In this document: in pieces, positions 22,461-56,982 of the stretch | Layout of the letters: each line of letters opens with the position of its first letter | Numbering within the stretch: position 1 is the first letter of the stretch | From: Antrihabitans stalactiti | GTDB taxonomy: Bacteria; Actinomycetota; Actinomycetes; Mycobacteriales; Mycobacteriaceae | Direction of reading: 5' to 3' | DNA: 64,000 bases | Assembly: GCF_012932915.1 (NCBI RefSeq) | Contig: NZ_VCQU01000013.1 | Location: 62,001-126,000, forward strand | Position numbers and translations under genes: made by a program | Notes under the pieces: model-generated | The model's input: only the letters and a program-made list of their open reading frames with translations | What the model was told of the DNA's origin: nothing | Database searches by the model: none

Positions 22461-22491
22461 TTGACCGATCGGTAATTTACCAATCGGTCAA
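22461..22491. promoter_or_regulatory. Predicted TetR operator, 31-bp inverted repeat
   Basis: TTGACCGATCGGTAA and TTACCAATCGGTCAA face each other around a single T. The 15-bp arms pair at 14 of 15 positions. The core ACCGATCGGT matches the common pattern of actinobacterial TetR operators. It lies 17 bp upstream of the tetR start at 22444 and 54 bp before the FUSC gene, so it could control both divergent promoters. Confidence 0.75.
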
Positions 22492-25093: not shown

Positions 25094-25555
25094 ATGGCGA
25101 AGGCGCTGATCCAACTCATCCGGTTCGCGACCGTAGGCGGTCTGTGCAACGTCGTCTACTTCGTGATTTTCCTGTCCCTGCGTGGCGACGGCGCTCAGCT
25201 GGCGAACATGGTTGCGACGATCGTGAGCACGGCTCTGGCGAACGAGCTGCATCGCCGCCTCACCTTCCATGCCGCCGGGCGGGTCGGCTGGTTCGAGGCT
25301 CAGTGGGCAGGCGGCGGATTGGCGTTCGTCGGACTCGCGGTCAGCTCGACCGCGATCGCGCTGCTGCACTTCGCCTTTCCTGCGGTCGGCGGCGTCATGA
25401 CGGGGTTGGTCGTGATCGGGGTCGGTGCAGCCGTCGGTGGAATGCGCTTCCTCGCGCTCCGGAGTTGGGTCTTCGCAGATCGCGCGGCCCCGACCGAGGT
25501 CGTGAGTCTTTTGGGAGTCCATGGACTCCCAAAAGACTCACGAGTGTTGGTCTAG
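25094..25555 (+). CDS. GtrA family membrane protein
   Basis: This protein of about 153 aa has four hydrophobic segments, starting LIRFATVGGLCNVVYFVIF and including NELHRRLTFH after the second segment, as in GtrA-like proteins that help flip or transfer polyprenyl-linked sugars. The ATG at 25094 is preferred over GTG at 25085 because the family begins close to the first helix. The last 18 codons (VVSLLGVHGLPKDSRVLV) are encoded by the palindromic repeat at 25500-25543, so the C-terminus has been extended or replaced by that repeat. Confidence 0.83.
   Translation: MAKALIQLIRFATVGGLCNVVYFVIFLSLRGDGAQLANMVATIVSTALANELHRRLTFHAAGRVGWFEAQWAGGGLAFVGLAVSSTAIALLHFAFPAVGGVMTGLVVIGVGAAVGGMRFLALRSWVFADRAAPTEVVSLLGVHGLPKDSRVLV
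25500..25543. repeat. Convergent-gap palindrome, copy 1
   Basis: A perfect 44-bp palindrome with 22-bp arms. Its left arm reads TCGTGAGTCTTTTGGGAGTC then CA. The outer CGTGAGTCTTTT is shared with copies at 36303 and 56025, while the inner stem differs with paired changes. It lies inside the 3' end of gtrA, just before the convergent secreted-protein gene that ends at 25552. There is no T-run after the stem on either strand, so it is not a standard intrinsic terminator. Confidence 0.9.
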
Positions 25556-26145
25556 AACGTTGCTAGGAAGCTGTTGACCGACGGCAGGAATCCCGGGTTG
25601 GCAGCGCCCACACCGATTGCGGCGCCGATGAATCCGCCGAGCACGGCACCGGGAATGCAGGCGGCGATCAGAACGAGGATGCAGCCGACGACGACGCCGA
25701 TTGCGGTGCCGATGCCGGCTCGCACTCCGCCGTCGTTGGACCAGCCGAGCCCCCACTGGCGGACCATGTTGTCGTAGGCATCGCCACGGGCGTCGACATT
25801 CTGCAGCGCGACGGGAGTGGTTTCCGGCGTGAGGGTGAGCGTGCTTCCGGCCGGATCGATCTGGGCGGCGATCGGGAACGCGTTGCCGCGCACCGAATAT
25901 GCCAGCGGCAGACTGTCGATGGTCGTCCCGACGGCGTTGACGATATCGACCGCGGTTCCCGTCGGGCTCATGCGGAATGTTCCGTTGCCGAGTGTCGTCT
26001 CGATCGACCGCCCGTCCGCGCTCTGGACCACCTGATAGCTGACGTTTGCATCGGCCGGACCCGGGTCCGCGTGCACGACGCCGGCGCAAACCGACATGGC
26101 GGCGATTGCAAATGCGGAAACCAAGGGAGCGCGATTGAGTCGCAT
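25552..26145 (-). CDS. Exported hypothetical protein with C-terminal hydrophobic Gly-rich segment
   Basis: This 197-aa protein has an N-terminal signal peptide (MRLNRAPLVSAFAIAAMSVC... cleaved near HADPG). A beta-rich domain follows (VSYQVVQSADGRSIETTLGN, TLTLTPETTPVAL), then a hydrophobic glycine/alanine-rich C-terminal stretch of about 45 residues that could insert in a membrane. I do not recognise the family, though this layout is common among secreted proteins of Nocardiaceae. The start at 26145 has AGGAG four bases upstream; longer frames reach 26199. It is convergent with gtrA, and the two genes overlap by four bases. Confidence 0.75.
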   Translation of the reverse strand: MRLNRAPLVSAFAIAAMSVCAGVVHADPGPADANVSYQVVQSADGRSIETTLGNGTFRMSPTGTAVDIVNAVGTTIDSLPLAYSVRGNAFPIAAQIDPAGSTLTLTPETTPVALQNVDARGDAYDNMVRQWGLGWSNDGGVRAGIGTAIGVVVGCILVLIAACIPGAVLGGFIGAAIGVGAANPGFLPSVNSFLATF

Positions 26146-26278
26146 GGGGCTCCTATCCTCGAAGGTGGCTCTGATCAGGCCGAAGGCAGTGCCAAACACT
26201 GAGGATTATGCATCCTCTGCAGGAAATTTTGTGGCGTAACGCGCGTCGGCACCGAGGTTTGGCTGGCACAGTGGAGTT

Positions 26279-33475: not shown

Positions 33476-35805
33476 TGTCGAATCGAAAGGGAATCGCCGC
33501 GCGACTGCGGCGACTCACCGACCGCACTGCGAGCGTCGACCTCACGCGGTACACGAAACTGTTGCCCGCGATCGGCGAGCGCGAAGCAGATCTTCGCAAG
33601 CTGTCCGACGAGGAGCTCGGTGCTGCCGCTCAGCATCTGCGGGAGTCTGTCGACGACAAGGGCTGGTTGACCGACATGTGTGCGCTCGGTCGCGAGGCCG
33701 CCGACCGTGCGATCGGCGAACGCCCCTTCGACGTGCAGCTGTTGGGCGCGATGGGTGTGCTCTCCGGCCACGTCGTCCAGATGGCGACCGGCGAGGGTAA
33801 GACGCTCGTCGGCGCGATCGCGGCAGCTGGATATGCATTGCGCGGCAACCATGTTCACGTTGTCTCGGTCAACGACTACCTCGCACGACGCGACGCCGAG
33901 TGGATGCGCCCGGTGTACGACCTGCTTGGCGTGACCGTCGGGTTCGTCGAGGAATCGAGCACCCACGATGAGCGGCGTGCCGCCTACGAGTGCGAAGTGA
34001 CCTACGGCGCGGTCAGCGAGATCGGCTTCGACGTCCTGCGCGACCGCCTCGTCGTCGTCCCGGGGGACGAGGTGGCCCCGCACCCGGAGGTCGCCATCAT
34101 CGACGAGGCGGATTCGGTGCTCATCGACGAAGCGCGGGTCCCGCTGGTGTTGGCCGGGTCCGTCGATCCGGGCGTTGCGCACGTCGAGATTGCCAACATC
34201 GTTCGGCGGCTCCGCCCCGGCCAGCACTACGAACTCGACCCCGACCGTCGTAACGTCTGGTTGACGCCGCTGGGTGAGTCCGAGGTCGAGACCGCGCTGG
34301 GCGGGGTCAACCTTTACGACGATTCCGGCTCGGACCGCTTGGCGTCGGTCAACCTCGCGCTGCACGCGGAAGCGCTGCTCACGCGCGACGTGGACTACCT
34401 GGTCCGTAACGGTGCCGTGCAGTTGATCAACCAGTCGCGTGGGCGAGTGGCCGTCCTGCAGCGTTGGCCCGACGGACTGCAAGCTGCCGTGGAGGCGAAG
34501 GAACAGCTACCGCCGTCGGACAGCGGCGAGATTCTGGATTCGAGCACGGTGCAGGCCTTGATCGCCCGCTACCCAACGGTGGCCGGCATGACGGGAACCG
34601 CTGTCGCCGTTGCCGATACGTTGCGTGAGTTCTACGAGCTCGAGGTAGCGGTGATCCCGACGGATCAGGAGAACATCCGCATCGACGAGCCCGACCGCAT
34701 CTTCACGACCACCGAAAAGAAGCTGGCTGCGATCGTCGCCGAGATCGAACGAGTTCATGCCGACGGTCGGCCGATTTTGATCGGTACGCAGGACGTCGCC
34801 GAATCGGAGGCGCTCGCGGAGCTGTTGCTGCAAGCGGGACTGAAAGCCGCTGTGCTCAATGCGCGTAACGATGCCGAGGAAGCAAAGATCATCGCCGAGG
34901 CAGGCGCGCCGTCCGCGATCACGGTCTCGACGCAAATGGCCGGTCGTGGCACCGATATCAAACTCGGCGGTCACACAGGCGCCGGGCCTGAGTACGACGA
35001 CGTCGTCTCCCGTGGCGGCCTCTACGTGATCGGTACAGCGAGATATCAGAGCAGTCGGCTCGACGATCAGCTTCGTGGCCGCGCAGGCAGGCAAGGTGAC
35101 CCGGGCGGAAGCGTCTTCTTCGCGAGCCTCGAAGACGAGTTGGTGCTCATGGGAGCACCGGATGTCCCGAAAGGTGTCGTCGCCGACGAGGACGGCGAGG
35201 TCAGCGATCGGCGAGTGCCGCCGCACGTCGATCATGCGCAGCGGGTGCTCGAAGGCGTCAACCTCGAGATTCATCGCAACACGTGGCGCTACACCCGCCT
35301 GATCGAGCGTCAGCGCGACGACCTGCTGGAGTTCCGCGATGCCGCGCTCAACGGTGACGCTGCTGCCGAGCTGATGCGCGCCGAGGCTGCGGACCACTAT
35401 GCGAAGCTCGAAAAAGAGCTCGAAGACGGCTCGTTGGAACAGATTTGCCGCGAGATTCTTCTGTTCCAGGTCGACCGTATGTGGGCGGATCACCTCGCCT
35501 TCCTCGCCGACGTCCGCGACAGTATTCACCTGCGCGCGCTCGGCAAGGAGACGCCGATCGACGAGTTCCACCGCGCCGCGATCCCCGAGTTCCACAAGAT
35601 CGTCGACGAAGCGAAAGCGCAAGCGGTGCAGACGTTCTCCGAGCTACAGGTGACGGACGGCAAGGTCGACCTCGAGGCGGCCGGTGTGCTGAAACCATCG
35701 TCGACGTGGACGTACATGGTCCACGACAACCCATTCGACGCGAGTGTCGGGCACGCACTGGCGGGGATGCGAAGTGCTTTGCGGAAACGATTCGGCCGAC
35801 GGTAA
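33472..35805 (+). CDS. secA2: Accessory preprotein translocase ATPase SecA2
   Basis: This 777-aa SecA homologue has QMATGEGKTLVGA (Walker A, about 102-114), the PPXD/crosslinking region, IIDEADSVLIDEAR (Walker B, about 208-221), MAGRGTDIKLGGH and QLRGRAGRQGDPG (motifs V and VI, about 485-550). It is far shorter than housekeeping SecA1 (about 940 aa) and lacks the zinc-binding C-terminal tail, which is how actinobacterial SecA2 differs. It drives export of a small set of proteins. Start choice: GTG 33472 (GGAA at 7 bases) or ATG 33475. It overlaps the kinase stop. Confidence 0.92.
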   Translation: MMSNRKGIAARLRRLTDRTASVDLTRYTKLLPAIGEREADLRKLSDEELGAAAQHLRESVDDKGWLTDMCALGREAADRAIGERPFDVQLLGAMGVLSGHVVQMATGEGKTLVGAIAAAGYALRGNHVHVVSVNDYLARRDAEWMRPVYDLLGVTVGFVEESSTHDERRAAYECEVTYGAVSEIGFDVLRDRLVVVPGDEVAPHPEVAIIDEADSVLIDEARVPLVLAGSVDPGVAHVEIANIVRRLRPGQHYELDPDRRNVWLTPLGESEVETALGGVNLYDDSGSDRLASVNLALHAEALLTRDVDYLVRNGAVQLINQSRGRVAVLQRWPDGLQAAVEAKEQLPPSDSGEILDSSTVQALIARYPTVAGMTGTAVAVADTLREFYELEVAVIPTDQENIRIDEPDRIFTTTEKKLAAIVAEIERVHADGRPILIGTQDVAESEALAELLLQAGLKAAVLNARNDAEEAKIIAEAGAPSAITVSTQMAGRGTDIKLGGHTGAGPEYDDVVSRGGLYVIGTARYQSSRLDDQLRGRAGRQGDPGGSVFFASLEDELVLMGAPDVPKGVVADEDGEVSDRRVPPHVDHAQRVLEGVNLEIHRNTWRYTRLIERQRDDLLEFRDAALNGDAAAELMRAEAADHYAKLEKELEDGSLEQICREILLFQVDRMWADHLAFLADVRDSIHLRALGKETPIDEFHRAAIPEFHKIVDEAKAQAVQTFSELQVTDGKVDLEAAGVLKPSSTWTYMVHDNPFDASVGHALAGMRSALRKRFGRR

Positions 35806-35815
35806 GGAGCAGTAC

Positions 35816-36301
35816 ATGACAGACGAATTCGAGGTCCAGCGGGAACGGATCCGTGAGCAGTACCTGAAGCCCACCGATTCGCGGCCGACGTCGTCGGCGC
35901 GCGGCTTGCACCACACCGCGCTCATCAGCAGCGACGTCGAGCAGACCGTCCGGTTCTATCAGGAGCTGCTGGAGTTTCCGCTCACCGAGGTGATCGAGAA
36001 CCGCGACTACCCAGGCTCGACGCATTTCTTCTTCGACATCGGCAACGAGAACCTGCTCGCGTTCTTCGACTTTCCCGGACTCGAGCAAGGTCCGTACCAG
36101 GAGGTCCTCGGCGGTCTGCACCACATGGCCATCAGTGTCGAGCCCTCCCGTTGGGAACGGTTGCGCGACAAGCTCGCCGATGCCGGCGTGGAGTTCGTCG
36201 AACACAGCGGCGCATCGATCTACTTCAAAGATCCAGACGGTGCCCGCATCGAGCTGATCGCTGATCCGCTCGGCGAAATGTATGGAACGAAGGTCCTCTA
36301 A
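35816..36301 (+). CDS. VOC family (glyoxalase-fold) protein
   Basis: This 161-aa protein has two beta-alpha-beta-beta-beta modules: LHHTALISSDVEQTVRFYQE with THFFFDIGNENLLAFFDFPG, and LHHMAISVEPSRWERLRDKL with IYFKDPDGARIELIADP. His residues in both modules and the terminal Glu could bind a metal, as in glyoxalase I or ring-cleaving dioxygenases. A frame upstream to 35744 exists, but GGAG six bases before the ATG at 35816 sets the start. A palindromic repeat begins one base after the stop codon. In Mtb a similar gene (Rv0887c, from memory) also lies near fprB. Confidence 0.85.
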   Translation: MTDEFEVQRERIREQYLKPTDSRPTSSARGLHHTALISSDVEQTVRFYQELLEFPLTEVIENRDYPGSTHFFFDIGNENLLAFFDFPGLEQGPYQEVLGGLHHMAISVEPSRWERLRDKLADAGVEFVEHSGASIYFKDPDGARIELIADPLGEMYGTKVL

Positions 36302-36302
36302 C

Positions 36303-36352
36303 CACTCGTGAGTCTTTTTGGAGTCCAGGGACTCCAAAAAGACTCACGAGTG
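36303..36352. repeat. Convergent-gap palindrome, copy 2
   Basis: A perfect stem of 24-bp arms with a 2-base loop (AG). The left arm reads CACTCGTGAGTCTTTTTGGA then GTCC. It starts one base after the VOC stop codon and ends four bases before the stop of the convergent gene at 36357, so it fills almost the whole gap. It is related to the copies at 25500 and 56025, with paired changes in the inner stem. Confidence 0.9.
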
Positions 36353-36356
36353 TTGG

Positions 36357-36758
36357 TCAGTCGTCGAGGGCGTCGAGGACGCTGATCGTCACGCCGTAGG
36401 GCAGGAATCGCACCTTGCGGGTCGGATCGACGTTGTCCTTGTGCGCGCGAAGCGCATCGAGCTCGGTCGGGAACGCTTGCTCGACCCGGGCTGCGCCAGC
36501 GTCGTCGTGGGTGTAGATCACCCACACGCCCTCTGCCTTCTCGACCGTTTCCGGCGCAGGCTCTTTGGGTGAGCGCGGTTTCGGTCGAGCCGCCCCGCCG
36601 CCGATGTCGTCCATGAACGATGCCCAACCTGAGCGATCGCCCGACTTGTCGATGAACCGGCTGACCAGGTCGAATGCCTCGCGCAACCCTTCGCTCGCCT
36701 CGGCGACGACGCGGTCGAAATCTTCGGGATCGAATCCGAACGGTCCGTGTTGACTCAC
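36357..36758 (-). CDS. Hypothetical cytoplasmic protein, 133 aa
   Basis: The N-terminal part is acidic and helical (FGFDPEDFDRVVAEASEGLR, residues about 6-25), followed by a Pro/Lys linker and a C-terminal domain with EGVWVIYTHDDAGAARVEQAF and RKVRFLPYGVTISVL. I do not recognise the family with certainty. AGGAGG stands 5 bases before the GTG at 36758; a longer frame to 36785 is less likely. Confidence 0.75.
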   Translation of the reverse strand: MSQHGPFGFDPEDFDRVVAEASEGLREAFDLVSRFIDKSGDRSGWASFMDDIGGGAARPKPRSPKEPAPETVEKAEGVWVIYTHDDAGAARVEQAFPTELDALRAHKDNVDPTRKVRFLPYGVTISVLDALDD

Positions 36759-36845
36759 GTGGTCCTCCTGTTGGTCACCGGTCACACTCCAGTGTCCATA
36801 CTTTCGAGGCTGCGCGCTAAGTCCGGTCGCTTTAAGAAAAGGTCG

Positions 36846-55589: not shown

Positions 55590-56024
55590 ATGAACCCGAT
55601 CGGGAAAAAGCTGATGGCCAGCGGAAACAAGATGATGTCGGCGTTGTATCGACGCTCGAACGGAAAGATCGGCGGCAAGGCGAAAGCCGGTCTGCCGGTA
55701 ATTTTGTTGACTGTGCCGGGGCGAAAAACGGGCGAGCCACGGACCGCACCGATCTGCTATTTCAAGCAGGACGACAGCTACATCGTCGTCGGGTCGGCAG
55801 GCGGAATGAAGCCCGAACCGCAGTGGGTACGCAACCTCGCCGCTGCTGGCGGCGGCCAGGTCCGCAATGGTGCCGACCAGTTCGGCGTGACCGCACGCTT
55901 CACCGAAGGTGCCGAGTGGGAACACCTTTGGAACGACGTTGTCATCGCAAAAGCGCCCTTCTTCGCCGACTACGCGACGAAATCGGGCCGAGTTCTCCCG
56001 ATAGCGATCCTCACGCCGAACTAG
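55590..56024 (+). CDS. Deazaflavin (F420)-dependent nitroreductase family protein (DDN-like)
   Basis: This 144-aa split-barrel protein has LPVILLTVPGRKTGEPRTAPICYF (about 37-60) and YIVVGSAGGMKPEPQWVRNL (about 68-87), the signature of the DDN/Rv1155-related F420H2-dependent reductases that reduce quinones or nitro compounds. The last helix is conserved (FFADYATKSGRVLPIAIL). GAGGAGAGGAG upstream gives a strong ribosome binding site. A palindromic repeat begins right after the stop codon. Confidence 0.88.
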   Translation: MNPIGKKLMASGNKMMSALYRRSNGKIGGKAKAGLPVILLTVPGRKTGEPRTAPICYFKQDDSYIVVGSAGGMKPEPQWVRNLAAAGGGQVRNGADQFGVTARFTEGAEWEHLWNDVVIAKAPFFADYATKSGRVLPIAILTPN

Positions 56025-56074
56025 CCCTCGTGAGTCTTTTCGGAGTCTATAGACTCCGAAAAGACTCACGAGGG
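56025..56074. repeat. Convergent-gap palindrome, copy 3
   Basis: A perfect 50-bp palindrome with 25-bp arms and no loop. The left arm reads CCCTCGTGAGTCTTTTCGGA then GTCTA. It starts on the base after the DDN-like stop codon and ends 8 bases before the stop of the convergent gene (56083). It shares CTCGTGAGTCTTTT with copies 1 and 2 and has its own paired changes in the inner stem. Confidence 0.9.
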
Positions 56075-56082
56075 TTGATGAT

Positions 56083-56982
56083 TCAGCCCAGCTCGACGAC
56101 TGTGCCAGGGCGGGCCAGCGATGCGACGGTGATCTTTCCACCCTTGGCTGCGCTGATGATCTGGCCCTGCCACGCCGTGAAGCACGATGCGGCTTCACTG
56201 TTGTAAACGCGGTCGAGGATCGGGGTCAGCACCTTCGCAACTTCGCCTTCCGCCGCGATCAGCTGCGCCCGGTACGGACCGTAGTAGGGCAGGATCGCTT
56301 CCAGCACAACGGCTGTGATCCCCTGAACGTTGGTGATGATCGGTGCCAGCACCGGCTCGTACTGGGAGATCACCGGCGCGATTTCGGCCAGCACCGGTCC
56401 GACCAGTTGCAGTAGAGGCTGGTACACCGAGCCCAATGCGAACGCCTCCGACGAGAACGCTCCGGCCATAGGCGCCAGACCGATCAGTGAGGCAAGCCCG
56501 CCCTGCCTCTCGGCCGCGGGCCACCCGAGCGGGCAGGGCGGCTGTGTCGCAAGGGGACTTGCGTCGAACGGACTGGCTGTGCCTGGCGTCGTGCCGATCG
56601 GGACCGACTCACCCGGTGAGCCCGGCGTGATCGGAGTGCCGGGGGAGACGGGCTTCGCAGGTGCACCGGGCGCCGCAGGAGTGCCCGGCTTGGCTTGCGC
56701 GAGCGGAACCGATGGACTCGTGTTCCCGGGCTTGATCGTCACTGCCGAGTTGGGTGCGCCGGGTGCAGGCGTCGGAGCGACCGCTGGCGGCGGAACCGGG
56801 GCGGCCGCCGCAGGCGCAGTAGCATTCGCCACCTGTGCTTGGGGAATGACGACGGCGACCTGATCGTTTCGGTCGGCGGTCAGGCCGGTGACGGCGACAG
56901 CACTGCCGATGACAACCAGTGCCGAGACCACTCGGATCGCGCCCGCCAGCCGATTACGCGGCGCTGGTGTTGAGGTAGTCAT
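56083..56982 (-). CDS. Exported or anchored Pro/Ala-rich protein, last gene of the envelope operon
   Basis: This 299-aa protein has a signal/anchor helix (VVSALVVIGSAVAVTGLTA, about 18-36), then a Pro/Ala/Gly-rich linker (about 45-150) and a C-terminal helical domain of about 150 residues with two Cys (PPCPLGWPAA, ASCFTAWQGQ). The linker probably spans the cell wall. The family is unknown to me. It follows the lipoprotein gene by 15 bp and probably shares its transcript. Confidence 0.75.
   Translation of the reverse strand: MTTSTPAPRNRLAGAIRVVSALVVIGSAVAVTGLTADRNDQVAVVIPQAQVANATAPAAAAPVPPPAVAPTPAPGAPNSAVTIKPGNTSPSVPLAQAKPGTPAAPGAPAKPVSPGTPITPGSPGESVPIGTTPGTASPFDASPLATQPPCPLGWPAAERQGGLASLIGLAPMAGAFSSEAFALGSVYQPLLQLVGPVLAEIAPVISQYEPVLAPIITNVQGITAVVLEAILPYYGPYRAQLIAAEGEVAKVLTPILDRVYNSEAASCFTAWQGQIISAAKGGKITVASLARPGTVVELG

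Follow-up and report, generated by a model that had tools for sequence, protein, structure and literature searches.

The elements moved by REP-associated (RAYT) transposases carry an asymmetric conserved tetranucleotide foot, and the MIRU repeats of Mycobacterium, which are non-palindromic, are found inserted at stop codons inside operons. REPs have been described as abundant, species-specific extragenic palindromes (PMC3116915), which often lie between convergent genes and are known as targets of insertion sequences (PMC1525189). Stable hairpins at gene ends are also discussed as terminators: A 2025 review reports U-tract-less terminators within 50 bp of stop codons in mycobacteria (PMC12288462) and cites, by title, work in which the U-tract was required, and for E. 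coli it is reported that ribosomes repress terminators located a few base pairs past the stop codon (PMC4824070). Surveys of prokaryotic stem-loops describe a leaning toward convergent spaces and 3′ ends as well as repeated palindromic motif pairs near 3′ ends in other taxa, among them a CGAAA-N19-TTTCG pair that is common in Mycobacterium (PMC1590033, PMC5217627). There is dispute over the way in which actinobacteria, with few U-tract terminators, end their transcripts. We analyzed a 64-kb stretch of the Antrihabitans stalactiti genome, referred to as the window, which contains three palindromes between convergent genes, and compared them with their copies elsewhere in the genome and with related hairpins in other species.

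The palindromes of the window and their copies in the A. stalactiti genome

An earlier note had described the three loci as perfect palindromes that lack a trailing T-run and end shortly before a convergent stop codon, all of which was borne out (Table 1): The U-tract of a canonical intrinsic terminator is absent at copies 1–3 on both strands. Each copy is predicted to fold into a single uninterrupted hairpin with a 4-nt loop, with −35.7, −40.2, and −44.3 kcal/mol for copies 1, 2, and 3, respectively, and alike on both strands; the two bases past the core palindrome are mostly G (48 copies). With regard to plus-strand stop codons, copies 2 and 3 indeed start directly behind one (after 1 and 0 nt, respectively), but the overlap with a stop codon that had been assigned to copy 1 did not hold. 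Here, the frame of the plus-strand gene runs through the palindrome and reaches its stop 9 nt past it; the overlap is thus with the gene and not with the stop codon. A search against Rfam, which covered the window and 10 loci with hairpins of the class described below, returned no match above the gathering score. Elsewhere in the window, an inverted repeat at 22461–22491 (TTGACCGATCGGTAA / TTACCAATCGGTCAA) resembles a regulator-binding site.

Table 1. Positions of the three palindromes of the window and of the genes that flank them.
Feature	Position	Strand	Description
Copy 1, palindrome	25500–25543	.	44 nt; 40-nt core GTGAG...CTCAC at 25502–25541
Copy 1, flanking gene	25094–25555	+	GtrA-type membrane protein; GtrA domain PF04138, E 6.5e-7; palindrome in its 3′ part
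Copy 1, convergent flanking gene	25552–26199	-	No Pfam match; stop at 25552, 8 nt from copy 1
Copy 2, palindrome (feature under study)	36303–36352	.	24-bp arms, 2-nt spacer; 40-nt core at 36308–36347
Copy 2, flanking gene	35774–36301	+	Glyoxalase/dioxygenase superfamily; PF00903, E 1e-14; stop 1 nt before copy 2
Copy 2, convergent flanking gene	36357–36785	-	No Pfam match; stop at 36357, 4 nt past copy 2
Copy 3, palindrome	56025–56074	.	25-bp arms, no spacer; 40-nt core at 56030–56069
Copy 3, flanking gene	55590–56024	+	F420H2-dependent quinone reductase family; PF04075, E 4.2e-31; abuts copy 3
Copy 3, convergent flanking gene	56083–56931	-	No Pfam match; stop at 56083, 8 nt past copy 3

The genome of A. 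stalactiti (G000) is a 6.76-Mb draft in 26 contigs. Within it, 132 + 132 exact matches were found for the half-site CTCGTGAGTCTTTTNGGAGTC versus 0 + 0 for a reversed control pattern, which rules out a chance origin of the palindromes. The half-site CGTGAGTCTTTTNGGAGTC is matched exactly 156 times in the forward and 161 times in the reverse direction. Because each copy contains at most one such half-site per strand, the genome holds at least 161 copies, and the palindromes of the window are three of these near-identical sequences. The same half-site has no exact match in any of the 300 further family genomes searched, three Antrihabitans congeners among them. A phage origin was rejected on the basis of a shorter half-site pattern, which has no match in viral contigs.

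Among 48 copies, the stem hardly varies, the exceptions being the first pair, the third pair, the loop, and the base that follows TTTT; when these positions are left out, the divergence amounts to 0.5% per site (60 copies). The 60-copy set was chosen by exact GAGTC/GACTC tips with at most six mismatches, so the zero entropy at these tips follows from the choice itself. The variable base is near random on each arm, yet it is paired in 40 of the 60 copies (permutation p about 5e-5). The covariation of the inner stem that had been noticed in the window, where this base changes on both arms each time, is consequently real but incomplete. No covariation was found in the flanks of 48 copies; the extra pairs outside of the core stem from a C-rich left and a G-rich right flank, one being the mirror image of the other. 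Since a terminator needs a hairpin and not specific letters, either the copying is recent or the letters are kept by something.

The family is accompanied by other hairpins in the same genome. At positions 69457, 194211, 639414, 755749, and 794579 of contig 1, and at others, less abundant families with the same 40-nt geometry occur (GTGCGCGAGTYTYACCCC-like and GTGCGTGAGTTTGGCC-like), which are perhaps older waves. A hairpin between convergent genes at position 598155 of contig 1 has an A-tract and a T-tract at its foot like an ordinary bidirectional intrinsic terminator and coexists with the class, and a second repeated hairpin of convergent gaps (contig 1, 235059 and 317557; CAGGCTCTGCATCGG, 8-nt loop) is not a member of it.

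Placement at gene 3′ ends and comparison with A. stalagmiti

The placement of the copies was analyzed in a 1.5-Mb sample of continuous stretches (contig 1 up to 800 kb, contig 20 up to 400 kb, contig 3, and the window), in which genes were called by a codon-bias script that gives exact stops and rough starts. Copies occupy 25 of the 249 gaps between convergent genes, 26 of the 865 between tandem genes, and 2 of the 248 between divergent genes, which corresponds to Fisher p values of 1.8e-5 for convergent versus tandem, 3.3e-6 for convergent versus divergent, and 0.06 (not significant) for tandem versus divergent. Contig 3 had entered the sample for holding half-sites; contigs 1 and 20 alone give 16/206 convergent, 18/692 tandem, and 1/204 divergent gaps, with p values of 0.0015, 0.0002, and 0.09 (not significant) for the same three comparisons. 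All but one of the 54 sampled copies lie in gaps, where copies centred within a flanking gene, but no more than 36 nt from its end, still count as lying in the gap, and the remaining one is inside a predicted gene. The distances from convergent and tandem copies to the stop codon fall between −10 and +22 nt in 67 of 76 cases (44 of 50 on contigs 1 and 20 alone), and those to the next start are broad; 13 of 69 stops near copies of the window's family, and 13 of 54 in the congener A. stalagmiti, fall within the core itself. Convergent gaps have a median length of 4 nt without a copy and of 55 nt with one. In tandem gaps, the sense of the loop is the same as that of transcription in 12 cases and opposite in 11, and hence without bias.

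The gap counts and stop distances taken together identify the family as a mark of gene 3′ ends, with convergent gaps favored in A. stalactiti but not exclusive. The formulation "one per convergent gene pair" in the earlier note was therefore too strong, as tandem gaps also hold copies and 90% of the convergent gaps of the sample have none. The pattern that the note had named as speaking against its claim, copies spread equally over genes and divergent gaps, is not seen in A. stalactiti, as the two occupied divergent gaps and the single copy within a gene illustrate.

The congener A. stalagmiti (G003), whose proteins have a median identity of about 74% to those of A. stalactiti, possesses many copies of a related but different family of its own, CTCGTGAGTC[CT]TTTCGG.... 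Twelve of these copies are distributed over 3 of 74 convergent, 8 of 316 tandem, and 1 of 73 divergent gaps, and a preference for convergent gaps is not significant (Fisher p 0.44). We compared 162 gaps for which both neighbors are conserved: 153 are empty in both species, 3 are filled with different families, and 6 are filled in one species only (1 in A. stalactiti, 5 in A. stalagmiti), a filled/empty pattern characteristic of mobile elements in which, with two species, insertion and loss are indistinguishable. Given four and eight occupied gaps, an overlap of three has a hypergeometric probability of 3e-4, where the occupied counts are raised because the samples of both species were partly picked for holding copies (at least 38 loci in A. 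stalagmiti; contigs 4, 2, and 10 and late pieces of contig 1 in A. stalactiti). That different families occupy the same gap more often than by chance is also compatible with a functional requirement for a hairpin at these ends. The edges of the insertions are not exact in the orthologous gaps compared. One of the filled/empty cases is the gap between sufS and sufU (aminotransferase class V / NifU-like), which measures 9 nt in A. stalagmiti and 101 nt with a copy in A. stalactiti. Unless a promoter of its own drives sufU, an efficient terminator at this place would separate the gene from the rest of the operon, and the copy therefore argues against a strong terminator.

A wider class of 40-nt hairpins

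Beyond the window's family, the Antrihabitans samples contain 82 stable hairpins whose GTG[AC]G foot recurs in mirrored form, C[TG]CAC, on the other arm. Of these, 76 measure exactly 40 nt from foot to foot, although they are not independent, 63 of the 82 belonging to one cluster (the window's family and its A. stalagmiti kin) with 60 members at 40 nt; by cluster, 40-nt members are found in seven of nine, some with unrelated interiors. The other 58 stable hairpins range from 29 to 64 nt, in a test made on Antrihabitans samples with no length filter beyond the score limit, which gives a floor of about 29 nt. The core of the class comprises 40 nt, made up of 18 bp and a 4-nt loop; its GTGMG foot is mirrored on the other arm, and its interior is specific to the species.

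A covariance model (R1) was built from 16 diverse members and itself has 40 positions, which bears on the length in other genera. Among 101 genomes of the bacterial family, which represent 31 genera, it detects class hairpins in 36 genomes and 15 genera, or in 32 of 97 genomes without the four Antrihabitans genomes that supplied the model. At least 15 matches, counted on both strands, are found in 22 of the 101 genomes (18 of 97 without Antrihabitans). At most 65 candidates were scored per genome in these 101 and at most 44 in a class-wide draw of 148 genomes, both strands being counted in either case. In the latter draw, 17 genomes match, of which two belong to the bacterial family (G000 and G084) and 15 lie outside, with 1–15 weaker matches each that are mostly 32–38 nt long in one genome. 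Two family genomes, G023 and G082, have 135 and 122 matches, respectively, and 13 of 17 and 17 of 26 of their best-scoring copies are convergent; the loci read there are the best-scoring ones, and one copy (L271), for which the finder returned no hairpin, was left out. Pairing within the R1 alignment was set aside as proof of an RNA role, as the sequences had been picked as hairpins, and the shared length and the variable-base test were used instead.

On named plasmids, members of the class occur in Rhodococcus qingshengii (split by an insertion sequence), R. opacus PD630 (imperfect), and R. oxybenzonivorans (degenerate). At orthologous 3′ ends on named plasmids, a class hairpin is present at one of eight acs loci (R. 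qingshengii) and at one of five pntB loci (R. opacus PD630); R1 finds the latter, imperfect copy and none at the remaining pntB and acs loci, and it matches a TauD/TfdA-family locus (L309) weakly (E 0.04). Two R. opacus PD630 assemblies (L308 from 2502 versus L321 from 227) differ by about 121 bp including a class hairpin. The extra stretch has TAGGCCC at both ends and reflects a deletion or an assembly error.

The surroundings of the core differ between species. Mini-hairpins of the GGCG...CGCC kind are present on 55% of 86 flanks in A. stalagmiti, 83% of 36 in G023, and 19% of 54 in G082, versus 6%, 7%, and 3% in shuffled-flank controls, and they stand on both sides of the core in 12 of 43 copies in A. 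stalagmiti and 12 of 18 in G023. In the window's family, 2% of 110 flanks have one and the shuffled control equally gives 2%, for which reason a three-hairpin architecture was rejected as a trait of this family. Similarly, TAG stops are enriched beside copies in A. stalagmiti (50% vs 26%) and in G023 (67% vs 34%, with only 29 background stops); in the window's family no such enrichment was found (28% vs 28%).

Explanations and comparison with known systems

Three suggestions had been made for the palindromes on the basis of the window: bidirectional ends similar to Rho-independent terminators, RNase III targets, and a REP-type mobile repeat. The last of these agrees best with the at least 161 copies, the species-specific sequence, and the orthologous gaps in which only one of the two species has a hairpin. 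If the palindromes were classical REP sequences, they would be moved by a RAYT (Y1 tyrosine) transposase, and REPs indeed share with them the abundance and species specificity (PMC3116915) as well as the frequent position between convergent genes and the role of insertion-sequence target (PMC1525189). However, the corresponding domain PF01797 is found in none of four Antrihabitans genomes and in 7 of 101 family genomes, and among the 22 hairpin-rich genomes only G025 has a match, a fragment (both 101-genome draws taken as the same). Moreover, there are no doublets, the smallest spacing between copies being 1,582 nt on contigs 1, 3, and 20 of A. stalactiti and 578 nt in A. stalagmiti. A RAYT origin was rejected on these grounds and we regard it as very improbable. 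A search for a mobilizing enzyme, which covered the Y1 family, yielded none, and a target-site duplication attributable to the palindrome itself was likewise not found. A site acting at the DNA level, either for binding of a nucleoid or recombination protein or as a landing site of insertion sequences, draws on copies with foreign sequence in the tip: Four A. stalactiti copies (C3:100, C3:240183, and C4:222705 at contig edges, and C1:901816, which equals L174:11816) are interrupted at their GACTC tip by sequence whose IS-like ends fall into two kinds, and three contigs end there. On the R. qingshengii plasmid RQCS_2 (NZ_AP023173.1; L307:1181-2540), an annotated IS481-family transposase gene lies between two hairpin halves, and the tip of about 16 nt occurs on either side of it, so that the IS481-family insertion sequence appears to target the hairpin tip. 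Yet such disruptions number 4 among 52 places listed in A. stalactiti, and the anchoring at stop codons along with the rarity in divergent gaps indicates gene ends, which renders a DNA-level function extremely improbable.

Two explanations at the RNA level compete with mobility. Bidirectional "I-shaped" terminators without a U-tract might have evolved in place by selection at the ends of transcription units, without any movement. The proximity to stops and the enrichment in convergent gaps, the perfect symmetry without orientation bias (12 versus 11 in tandem gaps), the 3 of 162 gaps that hold different families in two species, and the description of such terminators within 50 bp of mycobacterial stops (PMC12288462) are all in line with this; but selection for a hairpin requires neither the same letters at 161 or more places nor a new sequence for each species, 90% of convergent gaps manage without a copy, one copy separates sufS from sufU, and for E. 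coli it is ribosomal repression that is reported for terminators just past a stop codon (PMC4824070). We consider this explanation unlikely. Symmetrical processing sites for RNase III, or for another double-strand ruler that sets the helix length, would agree with the 40-nt core shared by unrelated interiors and with the tendency of the variable base to remain paired. They leave the sequence homogeneity and the filled and empty gaps unexplained, and as the sole cause they have very little probability; a mobile element could, however, have RNase III processing as an additional effect.

We favor the reading that the copies are probably a REP-like, non-autonomous mobile palindrome that inserts beside stop codons and supplies a symmetrical 3′-end hairpin. 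What was observed directly is the high number of nearly identical copies, their placement at stop codons, the filled and empty orthologous gaps, and the class-wide 40-nt core; the RNA role is inferred. An enzyme outside the Y1 family would copy the palindromes, which would insert at stop codons as the sites of least harm. Each copy would give one symmetrical hairpin to the 3′ end of one gene in tandem gaps or of two genes in convergent gaps, where both transcripts would share the hairpin left by the insertion. The RNA hairpin may then mark or protect 3′ ends on either strand, as a barrier to 3′-to-5′ decay after Rho or through weak termination without a U-tract; a strong terminator is made less likely by what is reported in PMC12288462 and PMC4824070. 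For the bacterial family as a whole, we tentatively propose, with somewhat less than even confidence, that mobile 40-nt hairpins of fixed geometry and mirrored GTGMG foot have spread at stop codons independently of RAYTs and that families replace one another in the same slot, in which case gene 3′ ends would be remodelled separately in each species by a selfish element serving at the same time as a bidirectional RNA end.

Repeats of the REP-like kind and terminators without a U-tract have each been described before. Searches of the open-licence literature turned up no description of a class that combines a 40-nt core, a mirrored GTGMG foot, placement at stop codons, species-specific interiors, and the absence of a RAYT. 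With this class, more than a hundred near-identical sites per genome become available as natural tests, serving both strands and with orthologous empty gaps as controls. It also points to a putative mobilizer of REP-like repeats other than a RAYT, and symmetrical gene-end parts for work in Rhodococcus might be drawn from it.

Going by their general description, MIRU repeats have in common with the class that they sit at stop codons, and they are set apart from it by the palindromic nature of the latter. From the stem-loops and motif pairs covered by the prokaryotic surveys, the class appears to differ in its foot, its core length, and the sequence family (PMC1590033, PMC5217627). Like REPs and REPINs, its members are short extragenic palindromes with more than 100 copies that are species-specific, often convergent, and targets of insertion sequences (PMC3116915; PMC1525189). 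Unlike these, they occur in a genus without a Y1 transposase, form no doublets, have a 40-nt core placed at stop codons, and bear a symmetrical foot, GTGMG being mirrored as CKCAC on the other arm. With the I-shaped terminators of mycobacteria they share a stable hairpin soon after the stop that lacks a U-tract and can serve both strands (PMC12288462), and the 67 of 76 distances between −10 and +22 nt place them well within 50 bp of a stop. In contrast to these terminators, which are not described there as a repeated family (PMC12288462), the hairpins of the class are near-identical within a species, different between species, and absent from orthologous gaps.
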